Part shown: piece after piece, positions 15,302 through 17,871 of the stretch | How positions within the stretch are numbered: the first letter of the stretch is position 1 | How the letters are laid out: every line of letters starts with the position of its first letter | Assembly: GCA_003218915.1 (NCBI GenBank) | Contig: QHPC01000239.1 | Span: 1 to 36,920, forward strand | Direction: 5' to 3' | DNA from: Verrucomicrobiota bacterium | GTDB lineage: Bacteria > Verrucomicrobiota > Verrucomicrobiia > Chthoniobacterales > UBA10450 | Length of the DNA: 36,920 nt | Translations under genes and position numbers: made by a program | The notes under the pieces: model-generated | Databases searched by the model: none | What the model was told of the DNA's origin: nothing | The model's input: only the letters and a program-made list of their open reading frames with translations

Positions 15302-15369
15302 ATCTGAAATAAATCTTGCAGCGGCAACTGCAAGCCGCTACTTCTCGATCCAGTTCTTTGCGAGTTTGA

Positions 15370-15600
15370 AAAAGTGGGTCGGCGCAAGAAATCCCGTGAG
15401 AACCGGGAGCAGTTGCGCTGCTGTAACTGGATACAACTTCCCATTGGGCCAATCGTTGTAGTGGCAGGCGTGCCGCCTGCGACTCTTTGGTTGTGCAGCC
15501 GACACGGTTGCCGCCACAGAAGAACGGTGAAGGCGGGGAGAAGGTGATTCCGACGGAGATCGGAACATAGGCCAGGAGCCAGAATATTTGTCCGGTCCAC
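15370..15600 (+). ncRNA. probable cobalamin riboswitch, interrupted by a REP-like element
   Basis: AATCCCGTGAGAACCGGGAGCAGTTGCGCTGCTGTAACTGG (core/B12-box-like) and distal GAAGGCGGGGAGAAGGTGATTCC...GGCCAGGAGCC; sits upstream of a TonB-dependent receptor. Boundaries approximate. Confidence 0.7.
15456..15519. repeat. REP-like element inside the riboswitch
   Basis: TTGTAGTGGCAGGCGTGCCGCCTGC...GCAGCCGACACGGTTGCCGCCACAG; hairpins GCAGGCG-TGC-CGCCTGC and GCAGCCG-ACA-CGGTTGC. Confidence 0.7.
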
Positions 15601-15610
15601 CTCATTCGGC

Positions 15611-15661
15611 TGTAGCCGCGATCTGTGATCGCGGCGGCCGGGATCAACGATCCGGGCTACA
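15611..15661. repeat. REP-like two-hairpin element
   Basis: TGTAGCCGCGATCTGTGATCGCGGCGGCCGGGATCAACGATCCGGGCTACA. Confidence 0.8.
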
Positions 15662-15759
15662 ACGCAGACCGAAAAAACTTCTTCGCAAAAAGAAGAATGA
15701 GAGCTGGGCAATCCGGCCTGTTGTAGCGGTGGTCTGCGACTGCTGAAACGATCTCGGCC

Positions 15760-15802
15760 TAACAAGTCCAACTCTCGGAGTTGAGTTGGAGGTAACTTGT
15801 TA
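15760..15802. repeat. palindrome upstream of the TonB receptor gene
   Basis: TAACAAGTCCAACTC...GAGTTGGAGGTAACTTGTTA, pairing with a 4-nt bulge. Confidence 0.6.
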
Positions 15803-15830
15803 TGCAAAATTGTCCAGTTTGGTTCGTTCC

Positions 15831-15995
15831 GGGTAGCGCACGCGTTCCGTGTGCAGGCGCCAGTCCGGCTCGGACTTTCGGCGTCGCGCCGAAACAGTCT
15901 TGTCCCAACGCGAGAATCTCGCGCCGTGCCGTCGCACAAGAAAAGTTCGCGAGCGCGGGACGCGGCCGCCAGCACCCGAGACGGATGCGCTACCC
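15831..15995. mobile_element. MITE-like multi-hairpin element with GGGTAGCGCA/TGCGCTACCC termini
   Basis: 10-bp perfect terminal inverted repeats, extendable imperfectly to about 29 bp; internal hairpins such as GCACGCG-TTC-CGTGTGC, GTCCG-GCT-CGGAC and TTTCGGCGTCGCGCCGAAA; 165 bp. Confidence 0.75.
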
Positions 15996-17871
15996 AATCC
16001 GATTTGCTGCGCTTCTCGCCTTTGCGCCGCTTGTTTGCTTTGGCCAGCAGGCGTCGCCGACTCCTACTCCTTCACCGAGCGAAACGGAAGCTGAGCCGAT
16101 TGTCGTTACAGCAACCCGTTTCGACATTCCGCTCGATCTGTCGCCGGCCAGCGCGAGCGTGATTACCTCGGAAGACTTCGAGCAAAAACAAATCGAGCGC
16201 GTTAGCGATGCCCTTCGCGAAGTACCGGGGCTCTCGGTTGTTCAAACCGGAACAGCCGGCCAGTTGACGTCAGTTTTCACTCGCGGATTGCGCAGCGAGC
16301 ACACACAGGTCTTGCTCGATGGCATCCCGATCAATCAGGGTTTGCAAGGGGCTTTTAATTTCGCCGATCTGACGATCGACGATATCGACCGGATCGAGGT
16401 CGTGCGAGGCCCGCAGAGCACCTTGTACGGACCGCGAGCGCTCGCTGGCGTTATTCAAATTTTTACCAAACAAGGCACAGGAACTCCCGGGGCGATGGTC
16501 GCCGCCGAAGGTGGATCGTACGACACTTTCCGCGAATGGGGCCAGAGCGACGGCAAGATTGGCGACTTCGATTATTCAGTCGGTGCCAGCCGCTTCGACA
16601 CCGACAACGCGCGTCCAAACAATAATTACCGCAACACTGCTGCAATTACCGATGTGGGCTGGTCGCCTGACGAACAACTGCGGATCGGCAGCTTGTTCAC
16701 TTACTCGGTAAGCGACACTGGAAATCCAAACACCATCTTCGATCCGCGTCCCATTGATCACTTTCTCACGGAGCGTTGGTTAATCGGCCCCCACATCGAT
16801 TGGAAGCCGACCGAGTGGTGGCAACACAAATTGATTGTCAGTTACGATCACGAGCGACAAATAAACGATCCAAATGAGGACGGGTTCGTGGGGCCGACAC
16901 GCGCGCTCTTTGAACGGACACAAGTTGATTATCAAAATGATTTGCGTCCTGCCTCGTGGCTCACGCTCACGTCCGGCTTTTTCTACAGCCGCGTCAACGC
17001 AGGCCAAGAGCGTCCGTTTGTTCTGCAAATCTTTGGACCGCAACCAACGTTCGTGAGCGATCACACTGAAGAGATCGCGGGATTCTTGCAGGCGACGGTG
17101 ACGCCGATCGAGAACTTGATCTTCGTCGCTGGCGGGCGTTTTGATCATTTCAATCAATTCGGCGGTGTCTGGACTTATCGGGTCGCCGGCAGTTACAAGA
17201 TCGACAGGACAAACACGATCTTACACTCCAGTGTGGCAACCGGATTCAGTCCGCCAAGCAGTCAGGATAAGATTTTCGGAAATAATTTCGGATTAAGGCC
17301 GGAGCACGATTTTGGCTGGGACATCGGAGTCAGACAGGAACTCTGGGAGAGCCGGGTTGCCGCCGGCCTGACTTATTTTCACAATGACCTGTCGAACGCG
17401 ATCGGATCGAACGGACTTTTTCAGACGCTCAACCTCGGCGCAGCCGAGACTCAGGGCTTGGAAGCCGAATTACGCGCGCAACCGATCACCAACCTTTTGT
17501 TCACGGCGAGCTACACTTATCTGGAGGCAGAAAAGACTTCCTCGAAAGACATTTCACAACTACAAGGTGCGCGTTTGCCCCGACGGCCGCGCAACGAACT
17601 TTACGTTTCAGCTTCGTATCTTTGGTGGAAAAAACTGCGAACTGTGGTCGAGGCCAAGTTCGTAAACGCACGCGAGGAACTTAACTTCGGCGGCCCAAAC
17701 TTCGACATCGAGGATTACAGTTTCGTGAACATTGCAGCGGAGTATGAAGTGAATCCGCACCTGTCGATCTTCGGCCGGATTGATAATATGGCGAACGAAC
17801 ATTACTCGGAAGTGTTCGGCTTTCCCGCCCTTGGCCGCGCGGCGTATGGGGGGGTGAAAGTGCGATTTTAG
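15985..17871 (+). CDS. TonB-dependent outer membrane receptor, BtuB-like
   Basis: Signal peptide MRYPIRFAALLAFAPLVCFGQ; plug IVVTATRFDIPLDLSPASASVITSEDFE, VVRGPQSTLYGPRALAGVIQIFTKQG; C-terminal YGGVKVRF. Alternative start at 15802. Confidence 0.88.
   Translation: MRYPIRFAALLAFAPLVCFGQQASPTPTPSPSETEAEPIVVTATRFDIPLDLSPASASVITSEDFEQKQIERVSDALREVPGLSVVQTGTAGQLTSVFTRGLRSEHTQVLLDGIPINQGLQGAFNFADLTIDDIDRIEVVRGPQSTLYGPRALAGVIQIFTKQGTGTPGAMVAAEGGSYDTFREWGQSDGKIGDFDYSVGASRFDTDNARPNNNYRNTAAITDVGWSPDEQLRIGSLFTYSVSDTGNPNTIFDPRPIDHFLTERWLIGPHIDWKPTEWWQHKLIVSYDHERQINDPNEDGFVGPTRALFERTQVDYQNDLRPASWLTLTSGFFYSRVNAGQERPFVLQIFGPQPTFVSDHTEEIAGFLQATVTPIENLIFVAGGRFDHFNQFGGVWTYRVAGSYKIDRTNTILHSSVATGFSPPSSQDKIFGNNFGLRPEHDFGWDIGVRQELWESRVAAGLTYFHNDLSNAIGSNGLFQTLNLGAAETQGLEAELRAQPITNLLFTASYTYLEAEKTSSKDISQLQGARLPRRPRNELYVSASYLWWKKLRTVVEAKFVNAREELNFGGPNFDIEDYSFVNIAAEYEVNPHLSIFGRIDNMANEHYSEVFGFPALGRAAYGGVKVRF

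Follow-up and report, generated by a model that had tools for sequence, protein, structure and literature searches.

Intragenic REPs, the palindromic elements of Rickettsia (RPEs), as reviews summarise them, and one element-derived signal peptide are already known (PMC3733652, PMC10969869, PMC2229807, PMC2759123). GTAG-tagged REPs are mostly intergenic with some copies in ORFs, the intragenic ones being most numerous in Opitutus terrae, a member of the Verrucomicrobiota, and most REPs at ORF 5' ends in P. putida, C. koseri and S. maltophilia were held to be probably untranslated (PMC3733652). The RPEs (Ogata et al. 2000, 2002) are described in reviews (PMC10969869, PMC2229807) as palindromic coding elements of about 100–150 bp which lie in frame in protein genes. 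For YPAL/RU-2 in Yersinia YPO1552, a single locus with an element-derived signal peptide, a new protein has been proposed (Delihas 2007, PMC2759123). The RAYT / TnpA-REP genes, which code for REP-associated tyrosine transposases, are treated as stand-alone genes (PMC8266576, PMC6006769), and unexpectedly long RAYT proteins were excluded as fusions or annotation errors (PMC6006769).

The element and its setting at the receptor gene

We analysed a stretch of 36,920 nucleotides (the window) from a Verrucomicrobiota bacterium, positions 1–36,920 of the forward strand of contig QHPC01000239.1 in the draft genome GCA_003218915.1, which is 85% complete. Its genus, placed via named relatives, is Ca. 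Udaeobacter, a common soil bacterium that is among the most abundant bacterial groups in soil. The features around the start of the receptor gene are as follows.

15363–15610, + strand: cobalamin riboswitch aptamer, 5' of the receptor gene (Rfam RF00174, 39.1 bits, gathering threshold 31.5)
15761–15801, + strand: hairpin (AACAAGTCCAACTC...ACTTGTT) containing the Shine-Dalgarno (SD) GGAGG (15788–15792), directly 5' of ATG 15802 (fold of 15672–15825)
15802–15830, + strand: putative native start of the receptor and its first codons (MQNCPVWFVP), which read MQNRPVWF or MRNRPVWF in relatives whether or not they have the element
15831–15995, + strand: GTAG-REP doublet (REPIN/MITE-like), 165 bp, in-frame translation GSARVPCAGASPARTFGVAPKQSCPNARISRRAVAQEKFASAGRGRQHPRRMRYP (from repeats, fold, copies and orthologues)
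15831–15857, + strand: left REP, GTAG tag and GCACGCG-TTC-CGTGTGC hairpin
15860–15875, + strand: nested accessory palindrome CCAGTCCGGCTCGGAC, which only some btuB copies have
15876–15894, + strand: inner hairpin TTTCGGCGTCGCGCCGAAA, also at RAYT transposon ends
15969–15995, - strand: right REP, inverted, holding the non-conserved ATG 15985 and encoding an RRxRYP stretch beside the hydrophobic core
16003–16044, + strand: signal-peptide hydrophobic core and predicted cleavage region (FAALLAFAPLVCFG; hydropathy scan, 37 orthologues)
16045–17871, + strand: predicted mature BtuB-type TonB-dependent receptor with Plug and barrel domains (Pfam PF07715, PF00593)

The Plug and barrel domains bear out the first-pass annotation, which had named a TonB receptor. 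The best NCBIfam model is that of the B12 receptor (TIGR01779), although its 213.8 bits lie under the cut-off of 599.7, and we call the receptor BtuB-type solely on this match together with the cobalamin riboswitch, which had been missed before. The hairpin around the SD, with a close match in about 26 of the 28 orthologues listed, is the probable expression platform of the riboswitch. Between riboswitch and start the leader carries two more GTAG-type palindromes (15612–15660 and 15723–15745); as the orthologues vary at these positions, the leader too appears to be a landing zone.

The element starts with GGGTAGCGCA 29 bases past the first base of ATG 15802 and finishes with TGCGCTACCC. Its terminal inverted repeats of 29 nt are 79% complementary and it folds at -90.1 kcal/mol compared with -70.5 +/- 4.1 for shuffled sequences (z -4.8), and so the multi-hairpin element of 165 bp proposed in the first-pass annotation is real. 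A blastn search of its own genome gave 45 match segments in about 15 places besides btuB, which supplies the further copies the annotation had asked for. The consensus REP is GGGTAGC-GCACGCG-TCT-CGCGTGC, a GTAG tag with a short palindrome behind it; of the 35 genomes of the genus, 34 contain it at about 1–95 sites each, while the reversed pattern, used as a control, had zero sites in the same 35 genomes. Most of the sampled copies appear to be intergenic or beside genes. Judged by its sequence, 15831–15995 consists of two GTAG-tagged REPs in inverted orientation, with a limited spacing range and a hairpin fold as in GTAG REPs and REPINs. The earlier term "MITE-like" was correct; more precisely, the element is a GTAG-REP doublet that looks as if it had arisen from a RAYT transposon by internal deletion. 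Flanks are frequently T...A, and the empty btuB sites are too diverged to show a target-site duplication. The element peptide had no match when searched against plasmids, and its spread by plasmids was dropped.

Start codon, reading frame and turnover at btuB

The first-pass annotation had left it undecided whether the element donated a new start codon at 15985 or was inserted in frame between the original start and the signal peptide. Both of its premises hold: ATG 15802 follows a good SD (GGAGGTAACTTGTT; -10.7 kcal/mol vs -3.0 kcal/mol at ATG 15985), and ATG 15985 sits within the right terminal repeat. We compared 37 orthologues with a recognisable SD and start, 22 of them element-bearing. 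SD and start (ATG; GTG in another genus) are common to both kinds, and where the element is absent, the comparison that had been suggested, the native start reads straight into a normal signal peptide such as MQNRSVWFFLVAILVFVPVVCHAQ (L057). All 22 element-bearing orthologues have an open frame from the conserved start through the element to the hydrophobic core.

For btuB the better supported reading is therefore that the element went in between original start and signal-peptide core without shifting the frame, because the start at 15802 is conserved, ATG 15985 is rare (kept in 3 of the 22, most relatives having GCG, GTG or another codon), the upstream SD is stronger and several element-bearing orthologues (e.g. 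L039 and L060) have zero ATG, GTG or TTG from the element interior to the core. Start capture, in which the element supplied ATG 15985 as the real start of today and left the upstream ATG as a relic, could draw on the signal peptide of normal length behind this codon (MRYPIRFAALLAFAPLVCFGQ) and on a comparable right-repeat ATG before a signal peptide in locus L144, but it is contradicted by the points just named as well as by the SD hairpin and the kept frame; we regard it as very unlikely and reject it for btuB. Somewhat less improbable, yet still unlikely, is that the element regulates at the RNA level in the btuB leader, its hairpin acting on translation or mRNA stability and its open frame being incidental. 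The hairpin is strong and near a riboswitch, and many REPs located at the 5' ends of ORFs have been proposed to act in this way (Di Nocera 2013, PMC3733652). Against it, the element lies downstream of the conserved SD and start, element-free orthologues are common, and length and frame are constrained while content, orientation and presence of the element vary.

This constraint can be put into numbers. The stretch between the start and codon 41 of the 628-aa frame has about 21 different lengths among the orthologues, between 36 and 111 codons, and in 37 of 37 it is stop-free and a multiple of three. In the window the frame runs open from 15802 to 17871 (689 aa), and the element's divisibility by three, claimed earlier along with the open frame, is a property of all 22 btuB elements, which share one phase and measure 129, 132, 138, 147, 150, 165 or 171 bp. 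As a control we took 39 element copies from five genomes, picked regardless of genes and with good REP matches at both ends: six have a length that is a multiple of three, 27 lack stops in the btuB frame (vs 22 of 22 at btuB) and five combine both. For the lengths Fisher's test gives 1.7e-11, or 9.5e-6 with only 8 btuB elements counted as independent, values which overstate independence because the orthologues are related. The dN/dS of the element is 0.5–1.5, mostly 0.7–1, so its peptide appears little constrained, and purifying selection on it was discarded. The argument rests on frame conservation and not on the peptide; a tolerated spacer would be expected to look like this, its frame kept and its peptide unconserved.

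On the receptor tree we scored whether the element is present, absent or a remnant, whether other palindromes take its place and which way its interior points, and at least 18 changes of state are required; for absence by itself nine are needed, at least six of them forced by supported branches. Recombination of the btuB 5' end could contribute to this apparent turnover. Other genera of the family have in-frame elements in the same btuB segment (L052, L108–L110, L113, L114, L117, L119). Udaeobacter orthologues that bear the element generally have a higher charge ahead of the hydrophobic core. Different palindromic elements, likewise in frame, were observed in this segment in L035 and L044.

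RAYT transposons and short elements in other genes

A parent for the element was reached through Y1_Tnp matches in long ORFs. Among 33 Y1_Tnp loci examined first for adjacent free REPs such REPs were rare and there was one flanked case, L269, a tyrosine transposase with inverted REP ends lying in frame inside recG. In the recG sample of the genus 14 genes carry a whole RAYT element (insert 627–858 nt), one (L291) carries an apparent RAYT-deletion derivative in frame at the recG site and the rest have short gaps, every gap length being a multiple of three. The 614/617-bp RAYT element and the btuB element have a common end architecture (REP, inner hairpin, GAACTTT / TTTCGGCGCGACGCCGAAA, REP) and their ends are 78–96% identical over 41–62 nt; the 614-bp element of the relatives agrees with the btuB element in REP consensus and architecture. 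From these ends, the btuB element is most likely a non-autonomous internal-deletion derivative of the 614-bp RAYT transposon. In its own draft genome, where recG ends at a contig end within a RAYT insert of a related REP subfamily, the search yielded no RAYT whose REP ends match exactly. The RAYT in RecG has kept its HUH and tyrosine motifs and its median dN/dS is 0.10 vs 0.09 for RecG, many pairs being saturated; the low value may stem from selection before insertion.

In order to cover the order Chthoniobacterales, 197 genomes were surveyed. Most of the about 80 strong RAYT matches are stop-free in ORFs of 700–1600 aa and roughly nine are stand-alone genes. By models or motifs the host proteins are RecG, MetH (two linkers), AlaS and ThrS. 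With NF047646 (cut-off 80) two RecG fusions score 87.2 and 80.5, and the MetH and ThrS fusions 79.8; the match covers the whole model, and HUH and YIxxNP-type motifs are present. For AlaS, L334 does not reach the 1e-20 listing limit for NF047646 but has a tblastn match, and L282 passes Pfam Y1_Tnp. The RAYT tree clusters partially by host gene and requires ten host changes (minimum six), which makes moves between host genes likely on this tree.

Several further observations belong here. In-frame RAYT domains in these four proteins were noted in L269, L273–L276, L278, L279, L282–L284, L286–L289 and L325–L344. An ORF containing MetH (L283) has apparently two of them in frame, and in L273 MetH has a RAYT insert and also a short REP-like in-frame insert at a second linker. 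The CarB of the genome under study (G000:C71, L270:536-4654) contains, in frame, a Y1 transposase domain that belongs to a second family and lacks these REP ends, as does CarB in six further genomes of the genus.

Among the sampled copies, short elements were also found in frame in the signal peptides of seven HtrA/DegP orthologues (L172, L178, L180, L183, L185, L189, L204), about two dozen others being without one, at an identical site of an error-prone DNA polymerase in two species, in UvrA and at the N-terminus of PBP1C. In a serine-hydrolase-like gene (L144:1098-2357) the start ATG and the first signal-peptide residues (MRYPVSFALAFVLTSG) come from the right repeat; with the gene identity being our reading, this is a possible case of genuine start capture, by a different copy of the family.

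Two further explanations were weighed. The inserts in btuB, recG, metH, alaS, thrS and carB might be removed by RNA or protein splicing in the manner of IStrons or inteins, and IStrons, self-splicing IS-type elements in genes, give a precedent (PMC4227781). An Rfam scan of six fusion loci found no intron, a Pfam scan of five fusion proteins no intein domain, and the Rfam scan of the window listed no intron; furthermore the frames are continuous, and recG gaps that are all multiples of three would be needless under splicing. We consider splicing highly improbable and reject it. Nearly all genomes used are drafts and repeats are prone to misassembly, so that assembly or binning artefacts of metagenome-assembled genomes also come to mind. 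However, identical sites recur in many species whose genomes were assembled independently and whose sequences are divergent, insertions are also present in assemblies with few contigs (G038 about 20, G059 about 10), and as genomes of only 10–30 contigs show the same pattern, misassembly is unlikely; artefact as the general explanation is hardly credible at all.

Proposed course and comparison with known systems

Building on family membership, the ends shared with the RAYT element, the upstream start, the kept frame and the recurrent turnover, all read from the sequences, we consider it very likely that a RAYT-derived GTAG-REP doublet was inserted between the btuB start and the signal-peptide core and is translated in frame, giving a spacer removed with the signal peptide. 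The doublet, presumably mobilised in trans by a RAYT, would have landed in a riboswitch-controlled btuB, in the part that codes for the signal peptide, between start codon and hydrophobic core. Translation would initiate at ATG 15802 and pass through the element in frame, giving an arginine-rich spacer of ~55 aa in the n-region, with the right REP providing arginines beside the hydrophobic core. An n-region of ~65 residues is unusual. On export the spacer should leave with the signal peptide at the predicted cleavage site, so that the mature receptor would be unchanged. RAYT transposons and their deletion derivatives would be filtered after insertion, and in-frame, stop-free copies in permissive places would persist; as only such versions survive, the locus would gain, lose, shrink and invert elements in multiples of three.

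For the order as a whole we think it rather likely, with less confidence than for btuB, that the normal habitat of REP-ended HUH transposons in Chthoniobacterales is in frame inside recG, metH, alaS and thrS, where the transposase would be an unspliced domain of the host enzyme at few permissive loops or linkers, and that short derivatives reside in btuB and htrA signal peptides, the extra peptide being discarded on export. In this way mobile DNA could maintain itself in compact genomes, by using absorbable coding sites, keeping the frame and having the extra peptide cut off exported proteins. The old doubt whether REPs at ORF starts are translated thereby gets a testable case, and transposase-enzyme chimaeras in core genes, easily taken for annotation errors, may be real in an abundant soil group. 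In the open-licence literature we found no account of recurrent residence of elements in signal peptides and no RAYT lineage reported in frame in core genes, an absence which is weak evidence.

The btuB element is like the GTAG REPs of Di Nocera 2013 (PMC3733652) in its tag, hairpin and inverted dimers, and uvrA and dnaE2-type genes are targets there as well as here (L169, L162, L240). It differs from those cases in that the frame kept over 37 orthologues argues for translation and that the sites are signal-peptide segments. With REPINs (Bertels and Rainey 2011, PMC3116915) it shares the inverted REP doublet, the hairpin and the RAYT link; REPINs were defined from extragenic copies, whereas the elements here have about 130–170 bp, two extra inner hairpins and lie in frame within genes. 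Unlike YPAL/RU-2 (PMC2759123), a conserved export gene is concerned, in which elements are repeatedly gained and lost. IStrons (PMC4227781) are similar as IS-type mobile DNA tolerated in genes but are self-splicing, while no intron or intein was found at the fusion loci scanned. In contrast to known RAYTs, one clade here has most of its members embedded in long host ORFs. In behaviour the btuB element resembles the RPEs as the reviews present them, being in frame and stop-free in a protein gene; it belongs to another phylum, and a transposase-bearing parent, itself in frame, has been identified here.
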